Source: Microcaldota archaeon
GTDB taxonomy: Archaea > Micrarchaeota > Micrarchaeia > Micrarchaeales > CABMGC01
DNA length: 40,345 nt
NCBI GenBank assembly: GCA_021803245.1
Contig: JAJZLT010000033.1
Coordinates: forward strand, 1 to 40,345
Direction of reading: 5' to 3'
In this document: positions 16,470 through 37,606 of the stretch, in pieces
How positions within the stretch are numbered: position 1 is the first letter of the stretch
Layout of the letters: each line of letters begins with the position of its first letter
Position numbers and translations under genes: made by a program
Notes under the pieces: generated by a model
What the model saw: only the letters and a program-made list of their open reading frames with translations
Database searches by the model: none
Told to the model about the DNA's origin: nothing

Positions 16470-18044
16470 CTATCTCTCCAGTGCGAAGTGCGGATGCGAA
16501 ACCTTTACCTTAACTATCCTTTTTATGAGCATTTCATTTCCGCTGCCTATAAGCATGGCAGAATTCTCCCTAAGGTGCTTCTCTGCGTCATTTATCGCAC
16601 CAGAGCTTTCAGAATAGAGCGTAAAGATGGCCTCTCCCTTCTTAACATTCTCGCCTAGCTTTCTGTGCAGGATTATGGCAGCGCGCTTATCCAGCGGTGC
16701 GCCGAGTATCCGCGTTGCGGATGCAAGTGCGATATTGTTCATGCTGAGCACAGTCCCATTGCGGTCTGAAAGGATAGTGGCGCTGCGCCTTCCAAGCGGT
16801 ATCTCTTCCGGCCTTATCTTCGGATCGCCTCCCTGCCAGCTTATTATCTCATTCATCTTCTTTTCTGCCAGACCTCTTCTGAGTATGCTCATGGCAAGCT
16901 TCTTCCCCTGGCGCTTGCCTCCCAATTCCAAGATCATGCCAGCTATGCCGGTGGCTTTGTCAATTATGTCGGGCACGTTCTTAATGTTCCTTATCACAGA
17001 GAGTGCCTCGCGTGCCTCGGCGCCGGCTCCTATGGCGTAGCCTATCGGCTGGTCACCTCGCGTTATTGCTCCATGTACATTTATTCCCATGCGCCTGCCC
17101 AGATACATAAAGTCCCGAATGAGCAATTCTGCATCGGAAGGGCTCTTCTCCTTATCTCCAACAGGCACGTCAAGCACCATGTCTGTTGCACCGGCGGCCT
17201 TCTTCTTGGACATTATAGAGGGCAGCAGCAGCGGGTCTATTGAGAGCGGGTATTCGGCTCTTATGAAAATATCATCGGCAGGAGCAAGATGGACTGCGCC
17301 TCCCCAGACAATGCAGCCATTGATTCTGTTCACTATGCGCCTCATTTCATCAACGTTAAGGTTGACAGGCATAAAGGCCTCTGCCCTGTCTGCGGTTCCT
17401 GCAGCAGAGGTTATGGCCCTGGATGACGTTTTAGGTATCGTAAGTCCTGCCGCAGCCACTATGGGCACTGCCAGAAGCGTTGTCTTGTCACCCGGCGTGC
17501 CGCCTATCGAGTGTTTGTCAAATACTTTTTTTTTCTTCAATCCGAGTACCTCCCCGGTATTAACCATTGCCATAGACATATACTCTGCTTCCTCTATGGT
17601 CAGGCTATGCGCGTGCAGCCCGACCAGGAAAGCGGTTATCTCGTCTCTGCTGAGCCTCCTCTCTACCACATCCTTGACGATGCTGTAAAGGCTTTCATAA
17701 GGTAGTCGACGCCCCCTTAGCCTCTCCTTAATCACTGCAAGCGACTTGGGCTGTTCCATCTTCGCAAGCTTAACCTTGGCTCCATTCCTTAGCCTGAGCT
17801 CCCTGCTCAGCTCGCTTGTCAGGCCCATGCGGTTTCTCCCTGTGATGTTGGAGACGTCAACAATGGCTATGCTCTTTCTGCTGCTGCCTTTTGCATAAAT
17901 TTCGACCCTGTCTCCAGGCGCCAGCCCGTATGCTGTTGCGTCATGCCCATTGATAAGCACCACATTTGCGCCTGTATCTATTCCTACATTCCTTATTTCA
18001 AATTCCATCTCAACACTCTCATGCTGCGGCATAATGCCAGTCAT
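16470..18044 (-). CDS. AMP phosphorylase
   Basis: AMP phosphorylase converts AMP and phosphate to adenine and ribose 1,5-bisphosphate, the first step of the archaeal AMP degradation pathway. The 524-residue product is of the archaeal thymidine-phosphorylase-like type, with the extra N-terminal domain of about 90 residues (INGHDATAYGLAPGDRVEIY) absent from bacterial DeoA. The phosphate-binding signature FDKHSIGGTPGDKTT lies at about 175-189, with the TSSRAITSAAGTADRAE loop after it. Its ATG overlaps the RuBisCO stop by 4 nt (ATGA). M5 or M13 could also serve as start. With R15P isomerase and RuBisCO in the same operon the assignment is very firm. Confidence 0.95.
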   Translation of the reverse strand: MTGIMPQHESVEMEFEIRNVGIDTGANVVLINGHDATAYGLAPGDRVEIYAKGSSRKSIAIVDVSNITGRNRMGLTSELSRELRLRNGAKVKLAKMEQPKSLAVIKERLRGRRLPYESLYSIVKDVVERRLSRDEITAFLVGLHAHSLTIEEAEYMSMAMVNTGEVLGLKKKKVFDKHSIGGTPGDKTTLLAVPIVAAAGLTIPKTSSRAITSAAGTADRAEAFMPVNLNVDEMRRIVNRINGCIVWGGAVHLAPADDIFIRAEYPLSIDPLLLPSIMSKKKAAGATDMVLDVPVGDKEKSPSDAELLIRDFMYLGRRMGINVHGAITRGDQPIGYAIGAGAEAREALSVIRNIKNVPDIIDKATGIAGMILELGGKRQGKKLAMSILRRGLAEKKMNEIISWQGGDPKIRPEEIPLGRRSATILSDRNGTVLSMNNIALASATRILGAPLDKRAAIILHRKLGENVKKGEAIFTLYSESSGAINDAEKHLRENSAMLIGSGNEMLIKRIVKVKVSHPHFALER

Positions 18045-19351
18045 ATGGGCCTCTTCCCTCCCCAGTATTCCAGCGCAGCTTTGAGCGCAGGGCTGTGCCT
18101 AGCATATTCGGCAAGACTCTCGTGTTTCATCGCAGCAGATACTGCATCGCGCATTGCTGCGGCGCCGGCGCCCACTCCGTTTGGATGTCCGTCTATACCG
18201 CCGCCTGCCTGTATTGCAATCTCCGGCCCGAGAAGCTTCATCACATACGGCACCAGGCCCGGGTGAAGCCCTCCGGAAGACACCGGAACGACAGGCTTTA
18301 TGGCCTCCCATTTCTCCTTTAACACTCTTGCATGATCGAGGATGTCGCGATTCACGATTTCATCATCTATGTCTAGTACCTCCGTACGCGGAGAGGAAAG
18401 CTTTCCTACAACCGTGCCTATATGTATCTGGTCAACCCCGATAAGTCTTGCAAGCTTCGCTACGAGGAGCATGCTCATGCCGTGGTCGGCATTCCTAGTA
18501 AAAGCGGCATGGAAGGCCCTATGCGCATGGATAGCCAGGCCCAAGTCCTCGCATTCGTCTCTTATCGTCTGTGCAGCAGCCCAGCCTGCTGTTAGGATAT
18601 CCACCATAACATACTCGCCGCCAAGTTCCTTTACGAGCCTTGCCCTTCTTATCATCTCCTTCGTTTCAGCGGTAATGTTCGCAAGGTAGCTTTTTCTTTC
18701 TCCTGTCTCATTTTCGGCGTAGTCCCTATACTTAAACATGAGCTTCATGCGCGCGTCGAACGGATTGAAATCCTGGTTAGTAAGATTTTCATCATCCTTA
18801 AGAAGATCGACTCCTCCAAGCCATGCTTTTCTTGCGGCATCGGCATGCTCCTTCACGGTCATGCCAACTTTCGGCTTAGGCACATGAACAAGTATCGGCC
18901 TGCGTTTCTTCATCTTGAATATTTTTTCATATACGCCGTCAAGCCCAAACCCTGGTCCTCTGAATGAGCTAAGATAAGCTTTCGGCAAGGAGATGTCCTC
19001 AAGTCTCAGCGAGGCCACCGCTTTCATTCCAAATATGTTTCCAGCCACGGAGCTCATGAGCTGAGGGACAGAGCCTTTTTCGAAAAGTTCTATGGGATAA
19101 GCTACCTTCACATAACTGCCTTTGATGGAAAATGCCCTGGCCCGTATCTTTCTGATATGCTCCTTCAAGGTAGTCAGCTCCGCCCACGTACCGTTGCTGC
19201 TCTCGCTAGCAATCCTTCCCATTGCATTCTCCATGGACATGCCTTTTGCAGGATGCACCTTGAAGAGGCATACTAAGTCATTTTGCTTAGGCCTATGGCC
19301 AAGATCTACAAAATCCTTATACGGATCAATATTTGTTTTCAAAACATCCAC
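18041..19351 (-). CDS. rbcL: Ribulose-1,5-bisphosphate carboxylase large chain, archaeal form III type
   Basis: This RuBisCO fixes CO2 on ribulose 1,5-bisphosphate to give two 3-phosphoglycerates. Here it serves AMP salvage rather than a Calvin cycle. All key residues are seen (local number, spinach number): E50 (E60), N105 (N123), K159 (K175), K161 (K177), the carbamylated K185 (K201) in LLKDDEN with D187 and E188, H277 and R278 (H294/R295), H310 (H327), K317 (K334) in HIGTVVGK, and the S358/S359 region (S379). The GGGIDGHPNG phosphate loop is intact. The 436-residue length is typical of form III. It starts at GTG 19349-19351 inside the R15P isomerase gene (13-nt overlap). Precise subtype (III-a, III-b or III-like) needs a tree. 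Confidence 0.96.
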   Translation of the reverse strand: MDVLKTNIDPYKDFVDLGHRPKQNDLVCLFKVHPAKGMSMENAMGRIASESSNGTWAELTTLKEHIRKIRARAFSIKGSYVKVAYPIELFEKGSVPQLMSSVAGNIFGMKAVASLRLEDISLPKAYLSSFRGPGFGLDGVYEKIFKMKKRRPILVHVPKPKVGMTVKEHADAARKAWLGGVDLLKDDENLTNQDFNPFDARMKLMFKYRDYAENETGERKSYLANITAETKEMIRRARLVKELGGEYVMVDILTAGWAAAQTIRDECEDLGLAIHAHRAFHAAFTRNADHGMSMLLVAKLARLIGVDQIHIGTVVGKLSSPRTEVLDIDDEIVNRDILDHARVLKEKWEAIKPVVPVSSGGLHPGLVPYVMKLLGPEIAIQAGGGIDGHPNGVGAGAAAMRDAVSAAMKHESLAEYARHSPALKAALEYWGGKRPI

Positions 19352-20163
19352 CCATAATGCCCGTGAATCTCGCCCATCAGCGAGCCTGAATCTATCACTC
19401 CAAATTCGGTAATGAAGGCGTTTATGTTTTTCGGTTCCACTTCCTCGAAGACCTTATTTACTATATGTATATTTTTCCTATGCACATTCCAGACTTCAGT
19501 TCCAGATCTTGCCTCTATCTTCTCCTGTTTTCCATAGACTGTTTCAGGATCGAACTTCATTACCGATGAGGCTACGTATACCGGTATTCCAAAACTACGC
19601 GCAATCCCTGCAAAGAGGTTGCTCCCTATTTTATTTATCGCCGAGCCTGAGGAGGTTATGGCATCTGCGCCTATGAGCATCAGATCGGCTTCTTTTATTG
19701 CGTGCAAAGCTGCAGAATCAACATACATATTGACTTCTATTCCATGACTTGCAAGAGCAAGTGCAGTAAGCCTTCCCTGGAATGACGGCCTTGTCTCGGT
19801 AAGGTTTACGGTAAAGCGCCTGCCCTTCTTCCTGGAAAGAAGCATTATCGATTCGGCAGTTGAAGAATGGCAATGCGTATACACTGTGCTGCCATTCTGA
19901 ATGAGATTGCTTCCATATCCTGCTATCCTCGCATCCGCTTCACGTATCATCTCTGCCAGAGCACCCGGGTTCCCATATTTTGACAAGTATCGCATTGAAT
20001 TCCTGAGCATTGGCTCCGTAGGCCTCGCATTCATCAGCACCCGCTCGGCTTTTTTCTTATCGGCACATCCTGACCATGCAGCAATCGCCGCTTTGGCGAC
20101 GTTCTCTGCTCCCTGGATTTTCAAGGCTTTTATCATCTTAACTGTCTTGTAAAGATCATCCAT
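19339..20163 (-). CDS. Ribose-1,5-bisphosphate isomerase (eIF2B-like family)
   Basis: R15P isomerase turns ribose 1,5-bisphosphate into ribulose 1,5-bisphosphate, the RuBisCO substrate. The 274-residue protein belongs to the eIF-2B alpha/beta/delta and MtnA-like family. The catalytic Cys lies in YTHCHSST (C98) and the Asp in LIGADAI (D167), matching the Cys and Asp described for the Thermococcus enzyme. It is somewhat shorter at the N-terminus than typical members (about 320). It is the first gene of the overlapping operon R15P isomerase -> RuBisCO -> AMP phosphorylase. A TATA-like TTTTTAAGG on minus (about 20185-20193) lies about 26 bp before the ATG, which suggests a leaderless mRNA. Confidence 0.92.
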   Translation of the reverse strand: MDDLYKTVKMIKALKIQGAENVAKAAIAAWSGCADKKKAERVLMNARPTEPMLRNSMRYLSKYGNPGALAEMIREADARIAGYGSNLIQNGSTVYTHCHSSTAESIMLLSRKKGRRFTVNLTETRPSFQGRLTALALASHGIEVNMYVDSAALHAIKEADLMLIGADAITSSGSAINKIGSNLFAGIARSFGIPVYVASSVMKFDPETVYGKQEKIEARSGTEVWNVHRKNIHIVNKVFEEVEPKNINAFITEFGVIDSGSLMGEIHGHYGWMF

Positions 20164-21953: not shown

Positions 21954-22177
21954 CAGAATATCCTCTGCATTAAAGATACAAAATAAGCTTGAATATCTAT
22001 AAACACTCCATGCCTATAAATGTTTTCATTGTACACGGCCCGGATGCAAAATGTCAGTGCGCAGTTTCGCAGACTGCCACGGGAATACCGCTCCAGCTGG
22101 CACCGCCATTGGGCGCTGCCTGCAAATTCAGATGCGCCTCTGTTCGTTACCTATTGCATGCTTCCCAGTACTGGGAG

Positions 22178-22248
22178 AGCCAGGGAAGGGAGTCGAACCC
22201 CTCTATCCCGCTCTGCAGGCGGGCGCATAGCCGATCTGCCATCCTGGC
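22178..22248 (-). tRNA. tRNA-Cys (GCA)
   Basis: Minus-strand cloverleaf of 71 nt: acceptor GCCAGGA/CCCTGGC (last pair A-C mismatched), discriminator T (the U73 expected for tRNA-Cys), D-arm GCAG/ATGC with three good pairs, anticodon arm CCCGC-CTGCAGA-GCGGG giving anticodon GCA, and T-arm AGGGG-TTCGACT-CCCTT. No intron, and CCA is not encoded. A TTAAATG box on minus about 25-30 bp upstream may be its TATA element. The 21954-22177 stretch downstream holds no gene. Confidence 0.93.
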
Positions 22249-22347: not shown

Positions 22348-23487
22348 ATGAAACTAGCTTTCCAGCCAATACCAAAGGAGTTTGTCTCAGGCACAGAATT
22401 TTTCGACTCAAAATCACCTCTTACAAAGGCGATTGAGAAAGTAAGCAAGTATGGTGCAGTCGTGGTGCTAAACGGGAAGGATTATTTCGGGATAGTTGAT
22501 GAGAGATCGATACAGGCAAAAAAGAACCTCGACATCGGAAAGCGGGAATCCATTTCGAAATTTGCGAAGAAGGCTCCTGTGCTCGACAGCTCAACCTCTA
22601 TAGACAAGGCGATAATAGATTTCTATGAGTCAGGTTCAAAGGCGTTAGCGTATCGCGAGGAAGGCAAGATAAAAGGCATAGTCCACAGGAATTCGCTGCT
22701 CAAGGCCATGCTTTCACTGCATCTCATCTCGGATTACAAGGTGCAGGAGATAATGTCGACTCCGATACTTGCCATAAATGAAGATGCGAACCTGAGCCAG
22801 GCGAAAGCTGCCATGGACAAGAATAGGGTTAAGCGTTTGATCGTAATGTCAAAGAAGGGTGCAAGCGGCATCCTGACGTATAAAGATATAATGAAGTATC
22901 TAATGCAGTCCCGCCGGAGGGTTATCACGCCCAGATCTTCTGTTCAGCCGAATATCAGTGTTGGAGAAGCTTCTAACAGGAATATCTATACAATAAGCAA
23001 GGATGCCAGCATAGACGATGCGATAAGGAGTTTTGTGGAGAACAAAGTTTCTTCGCTAATGGTGGTTGGAGATAGCAAGCCCATAGGTGTGGTTACCGTT
23101 AAGGATGTTTTCGAGGTCATTGCAAAAGAATCCTCAAGCAGGGAGAATAGAATAACCCTTTCTGGACTTGACAGCTATACCAAGGAGTACGAGGAAGATA
23201 TAAAGGAGAACCTTAGTGCGCTGATGGAGAAGCTAAACAGGTTCCATAAGATACAAACCACAGGCGTTTCAGCCAATGTAAAAAGGCTTAAAGACAAGAA
23301 CTACGAGGTAAAACTGCGGATCTTCCTTACCGAAAGAGGCGCAGTTTCGATATCTACTGCAGGCTACTCAATGGAAAGGGTTTTAAACGATGCCATAAAT
23401 AAAGCATACGGCATCATAAGGAACAGAAAAGAGATAATATACATGTCACATAAGCGTGAAAATGTGCCTGAAGAAGATGCAGAGTGA
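22348..23487 (+). CDS. Four-CBS-domain protein with C-terminal S30AE/HPF-like domain
   Basis: A 379-residue cytosolic protein. Residues about 10-262 contain four CBS motifs in two Bateman pairs: for example KAIEKVSKYGAVVVL..YFGIVDE, VQEIMSTPILAINEDANL..GILTYKDIMKYL and IYTISKDASIDDAIRSF..IGVVTVKDVFEVI. These usually bind adenosine nucleotides such as AMP/ATP. Residues about 268-379 resemble the ribosome hibernation factor fold: ITLSGLD, an amphipathic helix, TTGVSANVKRL, YEVKLRIFLTERGAVSISTAGYS and VLNDAINKAYGIIRNR, like the beta-alpha-beta-beta-beta-alpha of S30AE. An energy-sensing ribosome-binding protein is a sensible inference, and CBS proteins are reported as archaeal hibernation factors. 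It is just upstream of the pilin genes on the same strand. Confidence 0.8.
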   Translation: MKLAFQPIPKEFVSGTEFFDSKSPLTKAIEKVSKYGAVVVLNGKDYFGIVDERSIQAKKNLDIGKRESISKFAKKAPVLDSSTSIDKAIIDFYESGSKALAYREEGKIKGIVHRNSLLKAMLSLHLISDYKVQEIMSTPILAINEDANLSQAKAAMDKNRVKRLIVMSKKGASGILTYKDIMKYLMQSRRRVITPRSSVQPNISVGEASNRNIYTISKDASIDDAIRSFVENKVSSLMVVGDSKPIGVVTVKDVFEVIAKESSSRENRITLSGLDSYTKEYEEDIKENLSALMEKLNRFHKIQTTGVSANVKRLKDKNYEVKLRIFLTERGAVSISTAGYSMERVLNDAINKAYGIIRNRKEIIYMSHKRENVPEEDAE

Positions 23488-23497
23488 GTTATGGATG

Positions 23498-23971
23498 TAC
23501 GCTAAAAACAGCAACCGCAGGCTTCAGTCAAGTTTTGAATTGCTTATAACCATGTCTTTTGGCTTGGCAATACTTTTACCGCTTGTCATAATAGCGTTCA
23601 TACAGCTTTCGAATACCAATTCATCCCTTTCATCAATAGAGGCTCAGCAAGCAGCCAACAAATTATCTACAATAGCCACTGTAATAGGCGGAGAGGGCTA
23701 TCCTGCGAAGGAGCTTGTGCAGATAGAAGTGCCCCAGGGTGTGGCCGGCATAGAAATAGGTACTGCAGCAGATGGCATCGGGCATGAGATTATCTTCCTC
23801 GTAAGATCTCCTGTGGGGCTTAGCTATGTAACATCTTACACGCCACTGAATGTCAGCGGCAATCTGGGCGGCCTCTCCGCAGCAGGAACTTATCTCGTCA
23901 ATGTGACTTACCAGCAGAACTGCCCTTCAGACCTCAGCATACCGTGCGTATATATGCTGCCTGAGGTGTAA
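23498..23971 (+). CDS. Pilin-like protein with class III signal peptide
   Basis: A 157-residue protein starting MYAKNSNRRLQSSFELLI, followed by a long hydrophobic helix (TMSFGLAILLPLVIIAFIQL) and an extracellular domain. The LQSSFEL core matches archaeal type IV prepilin (class III) signals, with Glu at position 5 after a cleavage before Q. The exported part has NVSG/NVTY sequons and two Cys (NCPSDLSIPC) near the C-terminus, possibly disulfide-bonded. ATG 23480 would also be in frame and overlap the CBS gene; ATG 23498 gives the shorter leader and has AGTGAG about nine bases before it. It is likely a minor pilin. Confidence 0.75.
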   Translation, partial: YAKNSNRRLQSSFELLITMSFGLAILLPLVIIAFIQLSNTNSSLSSIEAQQAANKLSTIATVIGGEGYPAKELVQIEVPQGVAGIEIGTAADGIGHEIIFLVRSPVGLSYVTSYTPLNVSGNLGGLSAAGTYLVNVTYQQNCPSDLSIPCVYMLPEV

Positions 23972-23992: not shown

Positions 23993-26900
23993 ATGAAACT
24001 GCAGATCTCACTTGAATTCATGCTCGTCTTTTCATTCGTACTCGCGGTCTTCATCTTCATCTTCGCGGTCATAGCAAACCAACGGGTACTGGTAGTGAAC
24101 CAGCAGACCTATTCGCAGGTTCAGTCGATAGCGCAGGAGATAGCGCAGCAGATAGACAGTGCAGTCGCTGCAGGCAATGGATATCAGGCAAATATTCCCA
24201 TATACGGGATCAGCGGCATAACCATAGGCGGCATAAACGTCACAGACACTGGGATAGTTACTGTTAATGCATATCTGGCAAAGCAGAAAGTTACAGTGCT
24301 GGCATATAGCGACGCAAAGTCAGTGCTTGCGCCCAGCTCCGGCCTAAGCGGGAATTATGTGCAGATTTATAATTCATATGGGCTGATCTGCATAGACACG
24401 CCATGCACTGCAGCATTAGGCACGTCAGGCGATGTCCTGAACCTAAGCGTACAGAGCACAAATGTGGCAGAATTTGACGGCAGCTCGCAGATAATAATAC
24501 CACAGATAGCTGGCGTAAGCACGCCTGTCTTCACGCTCTCTGCCTGGGTATATTACAATGAATCAGATGCCGGCAAGCAAATCTACAACCTGCCCGGCCT
24601 GGAATCATGCTCTGTCGATACCGGTAACATGCTAAGCTGCGCATTCCCCGGCTCAGCAGTATACAACAGTCTGCAGTTCTACCCTGGTACATGGTATGAC
24701 CTGGTTTCCATAGACACTGGCACGGCCTGCTATGTAGACATAAGCGGTGTGGAAGAGAATTCTCCTGTTCCATGCCTCTTTGGTTCTTCCAACGGCATCG
24801 GAACTATAGGATCGCCTGGTTTCAATGGCCTTATCGCAAACATGCAGCTATATAGCACTACACTAAACGGCGCTTCACTTTATGCAGGCGGGATAGCGGC
24901 TGCACCTTCTTCAACGCAGTATCTGGCAGGCTGGTGGCCACTTTCCGGAGATTTCAATGATTACAGCATATATGATAACAATGGCTATGCCAATGGTGCG
25001 ATAGTCTTTCCTACAACAGGGGAAGTGACTGCCAGGGTAAGCACGATATATGGCGCTCCGGTGCAGAATGCAAAGGTCGCATTCTCAACCTCCATGGGAT
25101 ATTTAAATTCGAACCTTACGCCTTTCACTGTAGGCGCCACAGGATACACTGGCACAGTTTCAGCTTTCGTAAACCAGGGGGTGCAGAGCGGAATTGCCAA
25201 TGTGCGGGCGACCCTGTTCAACGGCCAGGAGGTATCACATCTTTTAACATGGCTTCCGATGAATCAGGGACAGGGCAGAGAGATGTTTAACTTTGCAAGC
25301 AACAGCACCCGCCAATTTACTTCGACTAATGCATCATGGAGCTATCCGGCTTACACGGCAACATTCAACGGAAAAGATAGCTACATCGCTGCACCTATAA
25401 GCTTGTCATCAAGCGTGCCATACACATTCGCATTATGGTTCAATGCCGCTAAGCTAAGCACATCCCAGTCTTCCTGCGCAACAGGTGCGACTATGTTTGA
25501 CAATGGCAACACTGCAGGCGTAGGCATCGGTGCGGGGGTATCCTATAACACCATCTATGTGCAGTATCCTGGCGGATGCGCGTCCATACCTTCGTCCATA
25601 GCCATTGAGCCTGGCCGTTGGTACGATCTTGCAATAGAATTTTCACCTTCCCCAAGCTACTACTCGATCAATGCTTTCATAAACGGCCAGCCTGCCGGCT
25701 CGGTCGCTGAAAGCTCGTTTTCGTCATCCAACCCTGCAAACTACGAGGATATAGGCAGGGCCGGATCGCTCAATTCATTCTTCAATGGATCAATAGCAAA
25801 TATGCAGGTGTATGTTTCTTCAACCCTGACTGAGGCACAGCTCGAGGATCTTTACAATATGGGCATCTCGGATCTTCCCGAAAAGGGCGCGCTTCTTGCA
25901 TGGTATCCTCTCGATGGCGACGCAGAAGACTATGGTCCTGAAGAATACAATGCGACAATCTACGGCGGTCTCCAGTTTTCGAAAACCAGCCTAACCCCAC
26001 TGAACCTCAATTCATCCTCAATACTCGCGGCTAACTTGTCTTCAGTAAATTATATACAGGTATCCAATGCATTATCAATCTCTCCGTCAAGCCAGATGAG
26101 CGCCTTCGCCTGGGTTACGCCAAATCTTAACTACCCTCCCGGAGCCATAACTGCCATACTGCAGAAAGAGGGCTCATACGGCATGTCAATAGGCCAATTT
26201 GGATCTAACGACATCCCCGGGGAATTCTCAGGTTATATAAGCTCTTCGGAAAGCTGCACATCCTCTCCTTACCCGCTCATTCCACATAAACTGTACTTTG
26301 TAGGCTTTACCTTCAACGGCTCCGTTGTGCAGAACTATGTCAACGGATACCCATACTGCTCCTACGAATATAACGGCATAATACCAACAACCAGCAGTGT
26401 CCTCGCATTCGGCGGGCCGTCAGACAGCGATAGCTATGCCAATGATACCCTCTCAAATGTGCAGTTATACGGAAAGGCGCTCTCCAGCAGCCAGGTCTAT
26501 ACCATATACAAAGGAGGCATAGCGGGCCTTCCCATAAGCAACGCGCAGCTTTCAGGCTGGTGGCTTCTCGACGGAAACACTACCGACTACAGCTCCGGAC
26601 ACGATAATGCAACTTCCTATGGTGCAGTATACACTGAAACATACGCATCTACTCCACAATTCGTCTATTCCTTAAGCAAGGGCGGCATGAACTTCAACGG
26701 CTACATGAGCTGCATTACATCGTATACTGCTTCGCCGCACCGTTTCCTGAATTCAAAATCCAACTTCACCATTGCTGCATGGGTCTATCCTTTTGAATAC
26801 GCTCCATCCGGCTCATCAGAGACTATATACTCTGAGGGCTCTCCCGGCTCAACGCTCTCCTTCTTCATCAATTCCAACGGCACATTGGCAGAGAGCGTCT

Positions 26901-27265
26901 ACAACTACCAGGCATCTACAAGGCACAACTATACTTCCACACTGCATGTGCCTCTAGACGCATGGTCTTTTGTGGCAGTCACGCTTTCAAGGGGAGGCGC
27001 AAATACTGGAATAGTGAATATGTACTTGAATACGCTGAACCAGACTGGCACAAGCCAGGACGAGTCAAACCCCAATACCAATTACATGGGAATAGGCTGC
27101 AATATCGGCTATTTGAAAGGCGAGCCGTACCTGAGCATGAATGGCTCGATAGCAGACCTGCAGACATATAACTACACGCTGAATAAGACTCAGCTGTACA
27201 GGATTTATCTCGGCGGGATTCCGCAATCGGAGTCGGCAAGCATGCCCCTGGGTGTGATAAGATGA
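23993..27265 (+). CDS. Giant LamG-domain adhesin with class III pilin signal
   Basis: A 1090-residue surface protein. It begins MKLQISLEFMLVFSFVLAVF, a classical class III prepilin signal, so it should be processed by a prepilin peptidase and enter a pilus. About 150 pilin-like residues come first, then LamG/concanavalin-like beta-sandwich domains at roughly 155-350, 455-665, 680-885 and 895-1080. An Ig/invasin-like domain (about 350-440: TGEVTARVSTIYGAPVQNAK) sits between the first two. Each LamG unit ends with a similar element (NGSIANMQVY..L..LY..G) and a GWWPLSGDFNDYS-like strand. Laminin-G domains bind glycans or proteins, so it is probably a tip adhesin. Its end overlaps the next gene by ATGA. 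Neighbours on both sides are pilin-like. Confidence 0.88.
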   Translation: MKLQISLEFMLVFSFVLAVFIFIFAVIANQRVLVVNQQTYSQVQSIAQEIAQQIDSAVAAGNGYQANIPIYGISGITIGGINVTDTGIVTVNAYLAKQKVTVLAYSDAKSVLAPSSGLSGNYVQIYNSYGLICIDTPCTAALGTSGDVLNLSVQSTNVAEFDGSSQIIIPQIAGVSTPVFTLSAWVYYNESDAGKQIYNLPGLESCSVDTGNMLSCAFPGSAVYNSLQFYPGTWYDLVSIDTGTACYVDISGVEENSPVPCLFGSSNGIGTIGSPGFNGLIANMQLYSTTLNGASLYAGGIAAAPSSTQYLAGWWPLSGDFNDYSIYDNNGYANGAIVFPTTGEVTARVSTIYGAPVQNAKVAFSTSMGYLNSNLTPFTVGATGYTGTVSAFVNQGVQSGIANVRATLFNGQEVSHLLTWLPMNQGQGREMFNFASNSTRQFTSTNASWSYPAYTATFNGKDSYIAAPISLSSSVPYTFALWFNAAKLSTSQSSCATGATMFDNGNTAGVGIGAGVSYNTIYVQYPGGCASIPSSIAIEPGRWYDLAIEFSPSPSYYSINAFINGQPAGSVAESSFSSSNPANYEDIGRAGSLNSFFNGSIANMQVYVSSTLTEAQLEDLYNMGISDLPEKGALLAWYPLDGDAEDYGPEEYNATIYGGLQFSKTSLTPLNLNSSSILAANLSSVNYIQVSNALSISPSSQMSAFAWVTPNLNYPPGAITAILQKEGSYGMSIGQFGSNDIPGEFSGYISSSESCTSSPYPLIPHKLYFVGFTFNGSVVQNYVNGYPYCSYEYNGIIPTTSSVLAFGGPSDSDSYANDTLSNVQLYGKALSSSQVYTIYKGGIAGLPISNAQLSGWWLLDGNTTDYSSGHDNATSYGAVYTETYASTPQFVYSLSKGGMNFNGYMSCITSYTASPHRFLNSKSNFTIAAWVYPFEYAPSGSSETIYSEGSPGSTLSFFINSNGTLAESVYNYQASTRHNYTSTLHVPLDAWSFVAVTLSRGGANTGIVNMYLNTLNQTGTSQDESNPNTNYMGIGCNIGYLKGEPYLSMNGSIADLQTYNYTLNKTQLYRIYLGGIPQSESASMPLGVIR

Positions 27266-27792
27266 AGGCCCAGTTCTGGTCATTCGACATAATCTTTGCG
27301 CTCTTCATATTTATAGTTGCAATACTGGTGCTGACGAGCGTGTGGCTGAGCATAAGCAACCAGTTCGCAATAGCCAACGGCGACAACACCGGCAGCATGC
27401 AGAACGAGCTTCAGCAGCTTGATTCAAAGCTCCTTTCCACAGGCAGTGCGAACTGGCAGGATCTTGTTCAGCCTACGAAGACTTCCACCTGGCAGAATGT
27501 AAGTGTAGGCCTCGGAGTAGGCCAGGGATCGGGGCTTTCATCAGGCAAGATTGAAACGCTCGAAGCTATGTCAAGTCACGACTATCAAGCGACAAAGCCG
27601 ATTCTCGGGATAGCTTACGATTATTACATATATATAGCGCTGAACGGCGGCCTTAACATAACAATAGGCAAGAGTCCGCAGGGCCAGTCTGCCACATCAG
27701 TCCAGGTCTCAAGCCTGCCCATAATAGTTGCCGGTCAGAAAGGGACGATGAAAACAGAGATCTGGACAAACACCACTTTCGGAATAGGGTAA
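27262..27792 (+). CDS. Pilin-like protein with class III signal peptide
   Basis: A 176-residue protein starting MKAQFWSFDIIFALFIFIVAIL. This is a class III-type signal in which Asp takes the usual Glu place, followed by one long hydrophobic helix. The rest is a secreted domain rich in Ser, Gly and Gln, with NVS, NIT and NTT sequons, and ends at TTFGIG. Similar AQFWS-type N-termini occur in archaeal minor pilins. It overlaps the LamG adhesin gene by 4 nt (ATGA), so the two are made in step. It is the last gene of the CBS/pilin operon; a hairpin follows the stop. Confidence 0.75.
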   Translation: MKAQFWSFDIIFALFIFIVAILVLTSVWLSISNQFAIANGDNTGSMQNELQQLDSKLLSTGSANWQDLVQPTKTSTWQNVSVGLGVGQGSGLSSGKIETLEAMSSHDYQATKPILGIAYDYYIYIALNGGLNITIGKSPQGQSATSVQVSSLPIIVAGQKGTMKTEIWTNTTFGIG

Positions 27793-28024: not shown

Positions 28025-29020
28025 TTAGGTTCCAGGCGCGATGCCGTTGAAGATAGAGCTTATCACAAAGCCTGTAATAAAGAAGACAGTAAATCCTATC
28101 AGAAGGAAGATAGGCAGATATCTTATGCCTCTTATGATGGACCCGTTCATTATCACAGAAACAATGAAAGACCCTAAAGCAGAGATTATCAGTATCGCCA
28201 GTATCGCAAAATCATTGTATTCGCCTTGCGTAACCTTCGGAGGGCTGGGCTTGAGAAAGCTGACCCCTGTGGAGGGCAGACCTCCCGGATTCTGCTGCAA
28301 TATCCCTGCCCATACGTTGTCTGTTATAGCTATCATCTTGTCAGTCAGCGCATAAAGCGCAGGCGCTCCTATTATTGCAGCGAATGAGATGAAGATCGTG
28401 TACATAAAGAGCTGGCCGGATATCTCCTTCTGTATCGTCTGCTGGTTCCTTATGTCCTTTGCTATGTCATTCAGCATATCGGTCATACCGCCGCCGTACC
28501 TCATCGATTCGTTGATCATCCTTACCGTATGCCGCAGCTGCACGGACCTGTAATTGTTACCTAATGAGATTAGCGAATTCTGGAATGTCTCACCGGTATA
28601 AAGCTGCTTGCTTATCTGAACCACGTCATCAGAGAAGTACTTGAATTCAGGCCTCGTGGCAGAGACCATGGCCTTGTCTATCGCCATTCCGCTCCTTATA
28701 TTGGCAGAGGTAAGCTGCAGGTATTCCGGCAAAATGCCCTCTACAAAATTCTTCCTCTGCTCTATCTTCAGCTCAAGAATGCTGTAGATCGCGAATTCCA
28801 AGATTGCCGCAGAGAAGATGCCTGCCAGAACTGCAATGCCGGCGTTTAGCTTGATTAGTGCAAAGACAATCACTGCAACAGCTATAAATGTGGCTATGCC
28901 TCCAATCACTGCAATTCCGATCAGGTTGTTTACGGTGGTCTTGACGCCTGCCAGGTCAAGCTCCCTAGACAGGAACCTTACAAGGCTCCTCGAAACCAGT
29001 TTCTCAAAGCTTATCCTCAT
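28025..29020 (-). CDS. Type II/IV secretion membrane protein, T2SSF/TadC-like (second copy)
   Basis: A 331-residue polytopic protein with the T2SSF domain at about 93-215 (EYLQLTSANIRSGMAIDKAM and RYGGGMTDMLNDIAKDIRNQ). Helices lie at about 32-57, 61-83, 203-225, 270-292 and 300-324. Such proteins (TadC, ArlJ, PilC type) form the inner-membrane platform on which the ATPase assembles pilin. It is the last gene of the five-gene minus-strand operon and lies 10 nt after a second T2SSF protein; paired TadB/TadC-like subunits are usual in Tad-like systems. Confidence 0.88.
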   Translation of the reverse strand: MRISFEKLVSRSLVRFLSRELDLAGVKTTVNNLIGIAVIGGIATFIAVAVIVFALIKLNAGIAVLAGIFSAAILEFAIYSILELKIEQRKNFVEGILPEYLQLTSANIRSGMAIDKAMVSATRPEFKYFSDDVVQISKQLYTGETFQNSLISLGNNYRSVQLRHTVRMINESMRYGGGMTDMLNDIAKDIRNQQTIQKEISGQLFMYTIFISFAAIIGAPALYALTDKMIAITDNVWAGILQQNPGGLPSTGVSFLKPSPPKVTQGEYNDFAILAILIISALGSFIVSVIMNGSIIRGIRYLPIFLLIGFTVFFITGFVISSIFNGIAPGT

Positions 29021-29030
29021 AACATCAACA

Positions 29031-30137
29031 TTAGCCGGCGAAGACAGGGCGTGAAGTCCTCATTATATTAAGGAATATTATCTGCATGAATGCTATCCCT
29101 GCGAGTGCCGCAAGAAGCACTGTGAAATTTATCGTGAATATGCTTATGAAGGTGGTAAGTATTGTTGCGACTGCAAGTCCCATGCTGGGGAAGATCACCC
29201 CGAAAAGCATGTAAAACATGGCAAGCGCATTCAGCCTCTGCCCGTATCTCCTCAGCTCTATCACCCGCTCCTGGTTCACCTCCTCCACAACAGACTGTAT
29301 TGCATCAGTCACTTCCGCGCCTGATTTTATGCTCACGCTTGCCTGCAGCATTATCCGCTTGAAGGTCTTTGACCTGCTTTTTGAGCTGACCTCATCCATT
29401 GCCTGTTCTATAGGCATGCCCAGCTGAACCAGTTCGATGACCTTTCCGAATTCCCTGCTTGCAGCCCCATAGCCTGTGCTTACCGCGCTCATTGCGTTGA
29501 AGAGAGGCATGCCTGATCTTAAGCTTATCACCAGGTCCCTGCCTGCAAAGAGTATGTCCCTCTCCACGAGCTTGCCGTTCTGGCCGAGTCTGGCTTTAGG
29601 GTAATTGAGGAAGTTATTGAAAAGCATCTGGTAAAATGCTATAGAAAGCACAAGACCGAAGACCGCGAAGACAGGCCTGACATAATACAGTATAAATGCT
29701 ATGGCGAACGCGATCACTGCTGTCAGAACTATCGCCTTGATCATTGTGCCTTTTACAAAATCGTACGGGCTCTTCTTTATGCCCGCTTCTTTAAGGAGCA
29801 GCTCATAGTCTTTCTGCTTATTCACTATTTTCTCTATATATCCTGGCCTTTTTCCGGGTGGCATCTTTCCTTGCTTCTTAAGCTGGGCTGGCGGTTTTGC
29901 AGAAGCATTCTTTGGCATTGCTGCCTGCTGTATCGCGGTCTGTTTCTGCAGCGTAGCATTGAGTGGCGTTATGCCTGTTTTGCCGTAAGCCTGCTTTGGC
30001 TTGCGTCTGAAGAGCGAGAATCCCCTCTTCTTCACAGGTCCAGCGTTCTGTGTTGCCTGGTCTGCCTTCTGTGTTGCGGCTGTAGCCTGCGAACTACCCT
30101 GCTGCTTATCGCCATCTCCCATCAGATCAACTTGCAT
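29031..30137 (-). CDS. Type II/IV secretion membrane protein, T2SSF/TadB-like (first copy)
   Basis: A 368-residue membrane protein. The first 110 residues are cytosolic, low-complexity and rich in Gln, Ala, Lys and Pro (for example KQTAIQQAAMPKNASAKPPA). Two helices follow at about 132-180, then a T2SSF domain (about 190-310: GRDLVISLRSGMPLFNAMSA and SVSIKSGAEVTDAIQSVVEE), and two more helices near the C-terminus. It is partner of the T2SSF protein downstream. ATG 30135-30137 is used; M6 is an alternative. The long Lys/Gln-rich N-terminus is unusual for the family and could contact the ATPase or the unknown 208-residue protein encoded next to it. Confidence 0.87.
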   Translation of the reverse strand: MQVDLMGDGDKQQGSSQATAATQKADQATQNAGPVKKRGFSLFRRKPKQAYGKTGITPLNATLQKQTAIQQAAMPKNASAKPPAQLKKQGKMPPGKRPGYIEKIVNKQKDYELLLKEAGIKKSPYDFVKGTMIKAIVLTAVIAFAIAFILYYVRPVFAVFGLVLSIAFYQMLFNNFLNYPKARLGQNGKLVERDILFAGRDLVISLRSGMPLFNAMSAVSTGYGAASREFGKVIELVQLGMPIEQAMDEVSSKSRSKTFKRIMLQASVSIKSGAEVTDAIQSVVEEVNQERVIELRRYGQRLNALAMFYMLFGVIFPSMGLAVATILTTFISIFTINFTVLLAALAGIAFMQIIFLNIMRTSRPVFAG

Positions 30138-30155
30138 TAATCATTACAACAAAGC

Positions 30156-30782
30156 CTATATAACCTTTTTCGCCTTGAGTTTGCTAATTGCCTCGTCGAG
30201 GCGCTTGTTTCTTATTGCAATCAACTCTGCCTCGGCTTTGTCAACAGGCCTGCGTTCCTTCTTTGCATATTTCTTCAGCCCAAGCACTTCCTCCTTTATT
30301 ATTGCCTTATGCTCCCCTTCGAACACATTTTCGTCTAAACCGGACATTATCTGCTCGAGTTCTGAAATCTGGTCCTGGTAAGAAAGCCCGATCATGATAT
30401 TACTGTTGTCCTCCGCAGGCACGGCTTCTTCAACATGCTCTTTCCTATTCTTCTTCATGAGTCCCCCGAATATGCCATGCAGCTCCCCCTGCGCCTTCTC
30501 CATATCCCTGCGCATAAATGCGCCGCCTTTCTTGCTTACTCCTTCGTCGCCTGGCCCTGCAGCTTTGCGCGCATATGCTTCAGCATAACCCTCATGTTGC
30601 ACTGGCGGGAGGAGATCAGCGATTCTGCTTGCTTCTTTGTAGTCGTAACTCACTACAAGCGGCTTGCTGTTTATTATGTTGCTTATCTCTATGCTTGCAT
30701 CTGCATCCTTCTGATTGGCTCCTTCTATCTCCTCTATTATCTTCACTGCATTTTCATAGGTAAGTTCTTCTTCAGCCATCAT
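30156..30782 (-). CDS. Unknown cytosolic protein of the pilus operon
   Basis: A 208-residue soluble, highly charged protein, predicted mostly helical: LTYENAVKIIEEIEGANQ at the start, KAEAELIAIRNKRLDEAISK at the end. A short hydrophobic patch (VVSYDYKEASRIADLLPP) occurs near residue 50 and a disordered Gly/Lys-rich stretch around 80-100. No family recognised. It lies between the ATPase gene (ATGA overlap) and the first T2SSF gene, so it is probably a regulator or connector of the pilus motor. The start is ATG 30782 or the adjacent ATG 30779. Confidence 0.8.
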   Translation of the reverse strand: MMAEEELTYENAVKIIEEIEGANQKDADASIEISNIINSKPLVVSYDYKEASRIADLLPPVQHEGYAEAYARKAAGPGDEGVSKKGGAFMRRDMEKAQGELHGIFGGLMKKNRKEHVEEAVPAEDNSNIMIGLSYQDQISELEQIMSGLDENVFEGEHKAIIKEEVLGLKKYAKKERRPVDKAEAELIAIRNKRLDEAISKLKAKKVI

Positions 30783-32284
30783 TTCACCGCAGCGAGCAGA
30801 TCCGCAGAGTAAGGTGCATTGTCATGTACGATCTGCATCATCTTGTCTTGATGCCTGTAATAGTTGGCCACAACCAGTCCGCATGAAGTAACGTCAAAGA
30901 TTTTGTTCTTTATCATCCAGTCAATAACCTGGCCCTTCTCATCTACATCCTGGTCTATCTCACTTCTTGTATAACCTCCATAAAGCGAGATTATCTCCGC
31001 GAGCCTGGAGAGCTCGCTGACCTTCACGAATGTATCATTTCTAAGGTTCCACCTGCTTATCACATTCGCTTCTCCTGCTCCTGTTACTTCTGCAAACTCG
31101 AGCATACGCCTTATTCCAAGTCTCCTATGCCTGAAAAGAGAGACAACACCTCCTATGGAGTTCATCATTATCTTTGGTATTGCTATCGGAGGATTAGTCA
31201 TCCTTATCATAGTATCTTCTGCGTTGTCCGCGTGTACTGTGCCATATACTGCGTGGCCTGTGTGTATTGCCTCGAAGAGCGTTTCAGCATCGGCCTTCGT
31301 TCTAATTTCTCCAACAAGCATAATATCAGGCCTCTGCCTAAGTGCATTTATCATCAAATCATAAAGGCCTATGGCGCCCTTGCCTTCAGGATTTGCCTGC
31401 CTTGTTAGCATTGGCACCCACTGCATGAATTCAGGAAGCGTAAGCTCCCTAGTCTCCTCTACAGAGATAACCCTCCTGTCGGGTGGCATGAAAATGCTCA
31501 TCGCATTTAGAAAGCTGGTCTTTCCGCTAGCTGTACCACCTGATATCAGCATGCTTATCTCGTTCTGTATACAGAGCCAGAGCAGGCCGGCAAGGTCCTT
31601 CGAGATCGATTTGGCTGATACTAGCGCGGGCATGGTCCATGGATTCTTCGAGAATTTTCTTATGGTGAGTGTGTTGCCGCTCTGAGAAACCGGGAAGAGC
31701 GTTGCATTTACCCTGGAGCCGTCAGGAAGCTCCGCGTCCATAAGCGGCGAAAGATTGGTTATCTCCCTGCCCACTCTCCTGCCTATCTGCTCCGAGTCCT
31801 CGTAAATGGAATTTTCGTCGCCCATCATTATGTTTGTCTTGCACCATCCCCATTTCTTGTGGAAGACCCATACCGGAAACTTCGAGCCGTTTACTGCTAT
31901 CTCCTCAAGTTTGTCGTCAGCTACCGGAGCTTCGAGTTCGCCAAGTCCAAGCATCAGGTTTATAAGATATGCTATCAGCACGCTTTTGGTTTCAGGAGAC
32001 GTGCCAGGAAGGTACTTGTCTATTATGATATGGCAGGCTTCTGAGTACTTGACTGTCAGCTCGTCAAGATACTCCCGATCCTGCACCCTGGTTGGATCTA
32101 TCGGCACAAGATTCAGGAGCTCCGGCCTAAGGGAGAGCAAAAGCACCTTTGTGGCTTCTCCAAGCCCTGGGACAGTAACTTCGTAGAGCGGTACAAAACC
32201 TCCTTCATCCCCTATTCTTACGCTTATCTTGAGTCCGTGAGCCTCAAGTTCATAAGATTCATATTCATTTACTATACTTGTCAT
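30779..32284 (-). CDS. TadA/VirB11-like secretion ATPase
   Basis: A 501-residue hexameric-type ATPase that powers pilus assembly or retraction. It shows Walker A SGGTASGKTSF (about 248-258), the Asp box VISVEETREL, Walker B DIMLVGEIR (about 320-328) and the His box HTGHAVYGTVHADNAED. The N-terminal half holds the usual KYLP and EIAVNGSKFPVWVFHK elements. I take ATG 32282-32284 with GTGAGG four bases upstream; a TTG one codon earlier would also be open. The stop overlaps the next gene (ATGA). It lacks the tetra-Cys of bacterial PilB, as usual for archaeal and Tad forms. Confidence 0.93.
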   Translation of the reverse strand: MTSIVNEYESYELEAHGLKISVRIGDEGGFVPLYEVTVPGLGEATKVLLLSLRPELLNLVPIDPTRVQDREYLDELTVKYSEACHIIIDKYLPGTSPETKSVLIAYLINLMLGLGELEAPVADDKLEEIAVNGSKFPVWVFHKKWGWCKTNIMMGDENSIYEDSEQIGRRVGREITNLSPLMDAELPDGSRVNATLFPVSQSGNTLTIRKFSKNPWTMPALVSAKSISKDLAGLLWLCIQNEISMLISGGTASGKTSFLNAMSIFMPPDRRVISVEETRELTLPEFMQWVPMLTRQANPEGKGAIGLYDLMINALRQRPDIMLVGEIRTKADAETLFEAIHTGHAVYGTVHADNAEDTMIRMTNPPIAIPKIMMNSIGGVVSLFRHRRLGIRRMLEFAEVTGAGEANVISRWNLRNDTFVKVSELSRLAEIISLYGGYTRSEIDQDVDEKGQVIDWMIKNKIFDVTSCGLVVANYYRHQDKMMQIVHDNAPYSADLLAAVK

Positions 32285-32300
32285 CAAGCCTCACGAATCT

Positions 32301-35527: not shown

Positions 35528-36586
35528 ATGGTAGATTTTACAAGCGAATTGTTAGGGAAAACTAGCCAAGCTTCGGACAACAGCACCAACTTCAGTCCAC
35601 AGATAAAGATTGTGACAGTCGGCGTCGGCGGTGGAGGAAACAACACCGTAAACAGACTCACAAAGGTGGGCGTGAAAGGCACGGAGCTTGTGGCAGTGAA
35701 TACTGATGTGCAGCATTTCAAGATGCTAGATGACAGAATAAAGAAGGTCTTGATAGGCAAGAGCATAACGCGCGGTCTTGGCGCAGGAGGAGACCCGGAA
35801 GTGGGTGCCAAAGCCGCAGAAGTGGACAGGCAGGCACTTGAAGAGATACTTTATGGCGCACAACTTGTCTTCCTCTGCGCAGGAATGGGAGGAGGCAGCG
35901 GAACAGGCGCAATACCTGTAGTAGCACAGATAGCGAAGGAGCAGGGCGCTATTGTAGTTTCAATGGTAACGTATCCTTTCGATCTGGAAAGAGTCAGGAA
36001 GGTCAAGGCAGAGGAAGGTATACAGAAGCTGAGGAAGTACAGCGACAGCGTAATAATACTTGACAACAACAGGCTGGTAAAGCTTGTGCCGAATCTGCCA
36101 ATGAATGAAGCCTTTGCGGTTGCGGATGACATACTGGCAAAGGCAATAGGCGGCTTGGTCTGGACCATAACGCAGCCAAGCCTGATAAACATCGATTTTG
36201 CCGATGTAAGATCGATAATGGGCAGCGGCGATGTTGGTTTCATCTCGGTAGGAACTGGCAAGGGCAATGACAAAGTGACATCTGCAGCAGAGGCAGTTGT
36301 AAAGAACAAGCTGCTTGATGTTGATTTCGAGAATGCCAAGGGCGCACTTATACACATATCCGGAGCATCGGACTTGACGCTTGGAGACGCGATAAAAGCA
36401 GGCGAGCTTATAACAGAGCGCATGGATCCAAAGGCGAATGTGAAGTGGGGCGCAAGGATAATACCTGGATACGAAGGCCAGCTCGAAATAGTGGCTATAG
36501 TTACCGGAGTAAGCGGCTCAAGTATACTGGGCAAGTTTGAAGAGAGAAAGAAGTCTTCTACTTACGCGGATATAGAGATGATCTAA
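35528..36586 (+). CDS. ftsZ: Cell division protein FtsZ, first copy
   Basis: A 352-residue tubulin-like GTPase that forms the division ring. The nucleotide-binding elements are VGVGGGGNNTVNRL (31-44), the tubulin signature GGGSGTG (121-127) and TYPFDLE. The T7 synergy loop INIDFAD (220-226) is intact, so it should hydrolyse GTP on polymerisation. A variable N-terminal extension (1-25) precedes the fold, and the C-terminal tail is short (KFEERKKSSTYADIEMI). The stop is followed directly by the second ftsZ, so both are made from one mRNA. Confidence 0.97.
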   Translation: MVDFTSELLGKTSQASDNSTNFSPQIKIVTVGVGGGGNNTVNRLTKVGVKGTELVAVNTDVQHFKMLDDRIKKVLIGKSITRGLGAGGDPEVGAKAAEVDRQALEEILYGAQLVFLCAGMGGGSGTGAIPVVAQIAKEQGAIVVSMVTYPFDLERVRKVKAEEGIQKLRKYSDSVIILDNNRLVKLVPNLPMNEAFAVADDILAKAIGGLVWTITQPSLINIDFADVRSIMGSGDVGFISVGTGKGNDKVTSAAEAVVKNKLLDVDFENAKGALIHISGASDLTLGDAIKAGELITERMDPKANVKWGARIIPGYEGQLEIVAIVTGVSGSSILGKFEERKKSSTYADIEMI

Positions 36587-37606
36587 ATGGCCGATAGCTT
36601 CGATTACGATGCATTCGCACCTAAGGTGGCGGTTGTTGGTGTTGGAGGCCAGGGAAGCAACCTTGTAAACAGGCTGCACTCCAATGGCATAAAGAGCGCA
36701 GACACGATAGCCATGAACACAGATATAGGCCATCTGAATATAATACACGCAAATAAGAAGATCCTGCTGGGAAAGGAAATGACGCGCGGTCTTGGTGCAG
36801 GAGGCTTTCCAGAAGTCGCTGCAAAAGCGGCAGAGATGAGCAAATCAGAGATAGAAGCTTCGCTTCAGGGTTACAACCTCGTTTTCATAGCAGCCGGAAT
36901 GGGCGGTGGCACAGGAACTGGCGCTGCGCCAATAGTGGCGCAGGTAGCGAAGGAAATGGGCGCGACTGTAATAGCCACAGTGACATATCCATTCGGGCTC
37001 GAGAGGAGCAGGAAGCAGAAGGCCGAATGGGGCATCGAGCAGCTCAACAAGCAGGCTGATTCAGTCATAGTGGTTGAGAACGACAAGCTGCTCTCATATG
37101 TACCGAACCTTCCTATAGAAAAAGCGTTCGAACTTGTGGACAATGTTACCGGAAATGCAGTAAAAGGCATAGCCGACACAATCACGCTTCCAAGCCTGAT
37201 AAACCTTGACTTTGCCGACCTTGCCAACATTGTAAGGAACACAGGCACTGCAGTGATAAGCATAGGCGCAGGATATGGTTCCGATCGTGTGCAGCAGGCA
37301 ATAAAATCTACAAGGACGCATCCGTTGCTTACTGTTGACTATGACGGTGCAAAGGGCGCGCTGATTCACGTCGAAGGCGGATCGAATCTCACAATAAGCG
37401 AGGCAACTGCAATAGGAAATGGGATAACAGAAGGCCTGGAGGGAAATGCCAATGTAATCTTCGGCGCAAGAATGGTGCCTGAGCTGACAGATCAGATACG
37501 CGTGATGTCTGTCGTTACTGGTGTCAAGGCAAAATTCGGCGAAAAGCGCCAAGAGGAGAGGCATGGCCCTACTCTAAGGATGGAAAGCATGGGAAGGATC
37601 TGGTAG
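36587..37606 (+). CDS. ftsZ: Cell division protein FtsZ, second copy
   Basis: A 339-residue FtsZ paralogue. Motifs: VVGVGGQGSNLVNRL (16-30), GGGTGTG (106-112), TYPFGLE and T7 loop INLDFAD (205-211). It differs from the first copy in the N-terminus and in its tail (KRQEERHGPTLRMESMGRIW). Many archaea use two FtsZ proteins with distinct roles (FtsZ1 scaffold, FtsZ2 constriction); which is which here needs a tree. The gene starts with no gap after the first copy. A pyrimidine-rich T tract follows. Confidence 0.97.
   Translation: MADSFDYDAFAPKVAVVGVGGQGSNLVNRLHSNGIKSADTIAMNTDIGHLNIIHANKKILLGKEMTRGLGAGGFPEVAAKAAEMSKSEIEASLQGYNLVFIAAGMGGGTGTGAAPIVAQVAKEMGATVIATVTYPFGLERSRKQKAEWGIEQLNKQADSVIVVENDKLLSYVPNLPIEKAFELVDNVTGNAVKGIADTITLPSLINLDFADLANIVRNTGTAVISIGAGYGSDRVQQAIKSTRTHPLLTVDYDGAKGALIHVEGGSNLTISEATAIGNGITEGLEGNANVIFGARMVPELTDQIRVMSVVTGVKAKFGEKRQEERHGPTLRMESMGRIW

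Follow-up and report, generated by a model that had tools for sequence, protein, structure and literature searches.

The closest described system is HibA which, according to the main text of the paper that presents it (PMC13324472, Nat Commun, April 2026), is composed of four CBS domains and an HPF/RaiA domain and occupies three positions on the 70S ribosome of P. abyssi. The same text reports that HibA inhibits translation in vitro, an inhibition left unchanged in P. abyssi HibA when both insertions of its HPF domain are deleted, that T. barophilus needs the protein for its 70S pools and for quick recovery, and that 47% of the genomes of archaea, with every major lineage represented, encode HibA. 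It also describes a single AMP/ATP site at the CBS3/CBS4 interface of P. abyssi HibA, AMP and ATP being bound without a clear change in ribosome binding (PMC13324472).

The stretch of DNA analyzed here (hereafter, the window) is one complete 40-kb contig (40,345 nucleotides) of a Micrarchaeota assembly that measures 873 kb in 42 contigs and is 80% complete. It encodes a protein whose architecture is the same as that of HibA and which was filed for this reason as a HibA ortholog; the analyses reported below allow us to assign it with high confidence to the known HibA family, as its Micrarchaeota ortholog.

Domain architecture and distribution of the window protein

The gene, named hibA in the following, and its parts are:

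22348..23487, + strand: HibA ortholog, CBS module plus HPF/RaiA-like domain; 379 aa, ATG start
22348..23142, + strand: N-terminal module of four CBS domains, residues 1-265; Pfam CBS, E 4.4e-34
22900..22959, + strand: linker between CBS3 and CBS4, about residues 185-204, in the P. abyssi PTC-loop region; pLDDT under 50 at 188-199
23143..23484, + strand: C-terminal HPF/RaiA-like domain, from the AlphaFold2 model, the C-terminal profile and the S30AE matches

The first-pass annotation had read four CBS motifs in the N-terminal part of the protein, and indeed Pfam CBS (PF00571) matched it in four stretches; a CBS match was retrieved in 30/30 members of alignment A1, which comprises 30 family members, the window included. 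When the whole model was used in a fold search, the top structural matches of the CBS module were CBS-module proteins, several of them ribosome-bound, the archaeal ribosome-bound proteins Sri and Dri being among the best ones; the module also superposes on MJ1225 (Z 18.4) and AMPK gamma (Z 17.2). The matches to MJ1225/AMPK gamma-type proteins lie almost wholly within model residues 1-263, the C-terminal domain being unmatched. CBS proteins fill the lists obtained with the whole model, and neither P. abyssi HibA nor bacterial HPF is among the best 50 fold matches listed (library to 8 April 2026). The NCBIfam matches of the window protein, all far under the cut-offs, were discarded as a reflection of generic CBS similarity. 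Two other places of the same assembly exhibit CBS matches, with two CBS stretches each. A tRNA-Cys gene (22177-22248, - strand) immediately precedes hibA and is read in the opposite direction.

Concerning the C-terminal part, the AlphaFold2 model (24 sequences in, pLDDT 83.3, pTM 0.80) displays a strand at 269-272, a helix at 279-300, three strands at 304-314, 318-327 and 331-339 and a helix at 342-359, that is, the HPF/RaiA topology, the same that the main text of PMC13324472 describes for the C-terminal domain of HibA. Pfam Ribosomal_S30AE (PF02482) matched residues 283-362 (E 0.0012, 20 bits); the bit score lies under the gathering score (23.7), so that the protein is not filed as a PF02482 member by that cut-off. 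To remove the contribution of the CBS domains, alignment A5 was built with the C-terminal domains only of 42 family members: S30AE matched 27 of them, the window included, with E values not exceeding 1 (the best being 1.7e-5), and every other family matched 2/42 at most. When the A5 profile was compared with the PDB (177,635 sequences), the four best matches, each individually weak, were bacterial hibernation/interface proteins:

8fmw, ribosomal subunit interface protein: E 0.011
4v8h: E 0.044 (like 2rql, it bears the annotation sigma-54 modulation protein; one of the two is also labelled HPF)
2rql: E 0.11
4hei, YhbH: E 0.23

The seven further matches (E 0.3 to 2.3) are unrelated proteins. Two other candidates were rejected: the RnlA toxin N-terminal family (E 0.0032 in the window protein) matches only 2/42 family members, and a second S30AE stretch (22996-23241, 14.2 bits), overlapping CBS4, was put down to chance. 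The window protein is the sole S30AE match in its own 80%-complete assembly, at E up to 10.

At the level of the whole chain, the A1 profile aligned with P. abyssi HibA (chain 9sr9_H) in a single alignment spanning profile positions 19-365 and chain positions 17-374 (E 1.4e-32), along which the domain order is the same in the window family and in P. abyssi HibA. The best A1 match in the PDB by E-value is not HibA, being the CBS-only ribosome-bound chain 9zni_6 (3.2e-34); a single-sequence search with the window protein reached HibA as well, with an aligned stretch that stops at residue 290 and covers mostly the CBS part. With chain 9l96_a, the A1 profile gave two separate matches, at profile positions 21-192 and 204-372. 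This chain is a second solved CBS protein, of 406 aa, whose C-terminal part aligns with the HPF-like domain of the family; among the papers listed in a literature search on chain 9l96 and SriA, none was relevant.

The first-pass annotation had proposed an S30AE/HPF-like fold for the C-terminus, pointing to a profile search and a structure prediction as the ways to check it, and to a lack of S30AE likeness in profile or structure as the outcome that would speak against it. Such a likeness emerged in both, and the A1 and A5 profile matches, the family-wide S30AE signal and the topology of the model together confirm this reading of the domains. The same annotation spoke of an AMP/ATP-sensing ribosome factor: the idea of a hibernation-type factor, combining CBS domains with S30AE/HPF, still stands, and that of a control by AMP/ATP is to be taken as a hypothesis, in view of the lack of a clear effect in P. 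abyssi HibA.

The window linker between CBS3 and CBS4 aligns with the PTC loop region of P. abyssi HibA (residues 190-207), and R191 is kept in 27/30 members of A1, the window included. Concerning the archaeal-specific insertions of the HPF domain, the profile alignment to P. abyssi HibA indicates a similar length for the first one and about five residues less for the one between beta14 and beta15. The motif T/S-x-x-D, which we take to be the CBS nucleotide-site motif, is present in CBS3 and CBS4 of the window protein and absent from CBS1 and CBS2. Within A1, the CBS3 motif has T/S in 25/30 and D/N in 26/30 members, and the CBS4 motif has both T/S and D/N in 30/30; in A3, the corresponding figures are T/S in 24/24 and D/N in 18/24 for CBS3, and T/S and D in 24/24 for CBS4 (the partial locus L056 was left out of A3, and L062 of A4). 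From the sequence, this pattern fits the single CBS3/CBS4 AMP/ATP site of P. abyssi HibA; as AMP and ATP have no clear effect on ribosome binding in P. abyssi, energy sensing by the window HibA is to be considered a hypothesis.

As to the distribution of the gene, 57 of 60 relatives exhibited some HibA match, full-length in 55; G020 and G031 harbor CBS fragments only, and no HibA match was found in G004, G022 and G036. In the whole phylum, profile matches at E 1e-15 or better were retrieved in 175/196 genomes (89/93 among the more complete ones), a figure that counts profile matches, the C-terminal domain not having been checked in each, and that includes at least one CBS fragment only (G031). 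The 24 related named loci (L040-L063) are labelled Candidatus Micrarchaeota in 21 cases and Candidatus Marsarchaeota in three.

The genes adjacent to hibA

The genes downstream of hibA that are discussed in the following are:

23495..23971, + strand: class III prepilin-like gene, directly downstream of hibA and conserved beside it
23993..27265, + strand: large class III-like protein, 1090 aa, with four Laminin_G_3 (lectin-like) stretches (Pfam)
27262..27792, + strand: third short prepilin-like gene of the row; no Pfam match at E 0.1
30779..32287, - strand: Type II/IV secretion (pilus assembly) ATPase (PF00437, E 2.7e-32), convergent with the row and used as a linkage control

According to the first-pass annotation, hibA lies upstream of pilin genes, on the same strand and with almost no gap. 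This was borne out by our analysis, the likely ATG of the pilin-like gene (23495) being located 7 nt past the hibA stop codon, on the same strand. The encoded protein starts with the N-terminus NRRLQSSFELL, which falls within the conserved pattern Q-S/A-S-x-E-L-L (Q11 and E15 invariant, 24/24); we take this N-terminus to be of the class III prepilin signal type. Its model consists of a helix (6-67) followed by six strands; no Pfam match was found, nor did the model retrieve any fold match in the PDB at E 0.001 or better. Beyond the genus, the identity to the window is 43-63% for the pilin-like protein and 30-46% for HibA in the same named loci. The stronger conservation of the pilin-like protein suggests that it is functionally constrained, unlike a surface pilin that changes fast.

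The same annotation had also considered the location of hibA unexpected. It does not appear to be an oddity of a single genome, though, since the arrangement is conserved in relatives. Indeed, the same 55/60 relatives that possess a full-length HibA also hold the pilin-like gene, which is placed directly downstream and on the same strand in 53 of the 55, with -8 to 103 nt between alignment ends. The two exceptions are represented by G037, where it lies 1.6 kb downstream, and G040, where it is about 3 kb off and on the other strand. In this latter genome (L075, 4255-6334) a different ORF, with QSAMEYLMTYGWAIL as N-terminus, overlaps the end of hibA in place of the usual pilin-like gene. As the two genes are adjacent, gaps in the assemblies may account in part for the 5/60 genomes that lack both. 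In the named loci, the stop-to-start distance ranges from -29 to +7 nt in 23/24 and is 2,560 nt in L062, all these values resting on script-picked start codons. The two proportions (23/24 and 53/55) are not independent, because the named loci and the genome set partly overlap (for instance, L040 is the same as G001).

Outside the window's order, the genomes listed include 55 with HibA and 44 with a pilin-like match; among the 33 listed with both, the two genes are adjacent in 20, apart on the same contig in 11 and on different contigs in two. Thus, the hibA-pilin neighborhood is real, conserved in close relatives and looser in the rest of the class. In two members of family f11 (L068 1199-4131 and L069 1104-4136), the row comprises, in this order, HibA, an ORF of about 450 aa, the pilin-like gene and an ORF of about 270 aa; the ORF between HibA and the pilin-like gene looks ThiD-type kinase-like by sequence reading. 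In the ORF maps of L070 and L071, a filter replaced the HibA gene (and, in L070, also the pilin-like gene) by longer overlapping frames.

A homolog of the Laminin_G_3 protein is located downstream of HibA in 17/24 named loci; in L050 it lies about 2.6 kb past the pilin-like gene, and L058 and L063 end soon after the pilin-like gene. This protein (23993-27265) may be regarded as a candidate adhesin of the pilus. The pilus-type ATPase and two T2SSF proteins occupy 28025-32287, convergent with the hibA-pilin row. On the other side of hibA, the region 16470-20163 (- strand) harbors AMP phosphorylase and type III RuBisCO genes (Pfam), together with a gene that reads as ribose-1,5-bisphosphate isomerase-like; this upstream cluster could be read as an AMP-degrading pathway adjoining a putative AMP-binding HibA, and it is found beside HibA only in L040 among the 24 named loci. 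Lastly, two tandem genes that read as FtsZ-like from their sequence (352 and 339 aa) lie at 35528-37606 (+ strand) with no gap between them.

Linkage controls, competing explanations and possible role

Taken as a whole, we propose, with a probability of about 0.9, that the window encodes a Micrarchaeota HibA that would keep idle 70S ribosomes intact, with a probable AMP site and a probable shared transcript with the pilin-like gene. By homology, the HPF domain would sit in the mRNA/tRNA channel of the 30S subunit and the CBS module would explore the vacant tRNA sites of the 50S subunit; judging from P. abyssi and T. barophilus HibA, the Micrarchaeota protein should block translation and preserve idle 70S ribosomes in starvation. 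The kept motif predicts that the CBS3/CBS4 interface probably binds AMP. Finally, hibA is probably co-transcribed with the pilin-like gene, which would tie the output of the dormancy factor to that of the surface filament.

Two different interpretations of the protein itself might be put forward. It could be an ordinary four-CBS adenylate sensor like MJ1225/AMPK gamma, carrying an unrelated C-terminal domain, as the good superposition of the CBS modules might suggest; yet bacterial hibernation factors and S30AE are retrieved with the isolated C-terminal domain, and the alignment of the chain to HibA extends over profile positions 19-365, which makes this interpretation hardly credible. It is also conceivable, even though improbable in our opinion, that the protein regulates the pilus genes (or other targets) by means of its CBS module, its HPF-like domain having been repurposed off ribosomes. 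The conserved place directly before the pilin-like gene speaks for such a regulator, as does the description of certain CBS modules of archaea as transcription factors (CM-3/HhpR, main text of PMC13324472). However, the HPF topology of the model, the S30AE likeness across the family and the matches of the CBS profile to ribosome-bound CBS proteins argue for a ribosomal role, and simple co-expression also explains the linkage.

A different issue is whether the neighborhood has any functional meaning or represents a leftover of slow genome rearrangement, an idea whose odds, in our judgment, fall only a little below even. Outside the order, 13 of the 33 genomes listed with both genes have them separated on one contig or placed on two; in other families, at least nine genomes harbor HibA but gave no pilin-like match at E 1e-5 (G069, G083, G088, G098, G100, G103, G127, G142 and G151) and seven of those listed have a pilin-like match without HibA (G095, G139, G149, G157, G163, G164 and G177). 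Moreover, some gene order is kept in general: the pilus ATPase, found in 60/60 relatives, lies less than 20 kb from HibA in 12/32 genomes of the window's family and on another contig in 20/32, and whenever it shares the HibA contig it is within 15 kb (12/12), so that a looser linkage of this gene to HibA exists in the window's family. In the second family, however, the ATPase is never found within 20 kb of HibA (0/23; five on the same contig at 61-356 kb and 18 on other contigs), and yet HibA and the pilin-like gene are adjacent in 21 of the same 23 genomes. Likewise, the upstream gene next to hibA, which codes for phosphoglycerate mutase, is present in 7/60 relatives, the window's genome included, and in the five other genomes that possess it together with HibA, the two genes share a contig only in the same-genus genome, being on different contigs in 4/5; the five upstream genes tested are near HibA in L040 and in 0/23 of the other named loci, some of which have little upstream sequence. 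These control genes being less linked, HibA keeps a tighter bond with the pilin-like gene than with the others tested, and the gene ends that overlap or nearly touch in 23/24 named loci (again with script-picked starts) also disagree with a mere leftover.

We infer co-transcription from the 7-nt gap in the window and from the touching or overlapping gene ends in relatives; such an arrangement suggests co-transcription and perhaps translational coupling. A TATA-like YTTAWA motif occurs within 100 nt upstream of HibA in 17/23 loci and in the last 180 nt of HibA in 8/23 (L056 was excluded, as it offers too little sequence before the gene); being found both upstream of and inside hibA, it does not discriminate between one and two promoters. 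A sigma-70 promoter scan of the hibA region gave counts at shuffle level, the sigma-70 consensus being inapplicable to archaea.

If dormancy and surface-filament genes share their expression, as we would expect from this arrangement, then it is possible that Micrarchaeota make a dormancy factor together with an attachment filament. According to the text of PMC5864196, some members of the phylum have been reported to live in contact with other archaea, and some Micrarchaeota contact Thermoplasmatales cells via pili-like structures. We can speculate that hibernation and the surface filament constitute one inherited Micrarchaeota module, in which dormant cells, for example off their host, would keep both ribosomes and filament, or in which the state of the filament would feed back on hibernation; this is a tentative idea, which we consider rather doubtful. 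No report of a hibA-pilin linkage was found among the papers listed in searches on hibernation/pili in Micrarchaeota and on CBS-domain/pilin/class III signal, and the text of a census of archaeal type IV pili (PMC4858521) makes no mention of CBS. HibA was described only in 2026, from experiments on Thermococcales, and the window contributes a well-supported ortholog from a phylum whose members are tiny; the conserved hibA-pilin pairing, in turn, offers a concrete starting point, open to testing, for asking how such organisms may coordinate dormancy with surface attachment.

Comparison with described systems

The window protein is most similar to P. abyssi HibA (PDB 9SR9 and related), in which four CBS domains are likewise followed by an HPF/RaiA-like domain in one chain. 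The two chains have a similar length (379 aa in the window vs 392 aa in P. abyssi) and share the linker between CBS3 and CBS4, although they are distant in sequence. They also differ in what is described of their surroundings, hibA of the window being placed directly upstream of a class III prepilin-like gene, whereas the main text of PMC13324472 makes no mention of operon or pili.

The bacterial HPF/RaiA proteins (YfiA; PF02482) share with the C-terminal domain of the window protein the topology and a weak, family-wide sequence likeness; the bacterial hibernation chains matched by A5, of 95-101 aa, are too short to contain a CBS module. Dri and SriA-SriD have the fold of the CBS module in common with the window protein and are ribosome-bound in solved structures; unlike the window protein, Dri consists of two CBS modules (main text of PMC13324472), and the Sri chains matched (257-281 residues) could not accommodate an HPF domain in addition to a CBS module. 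Lastly, MJ1225/AMPK gamma-type proteins exhibit a four-CBS disk like that of the window protein, the HPF-like C-terminal domain being present only in the latter.
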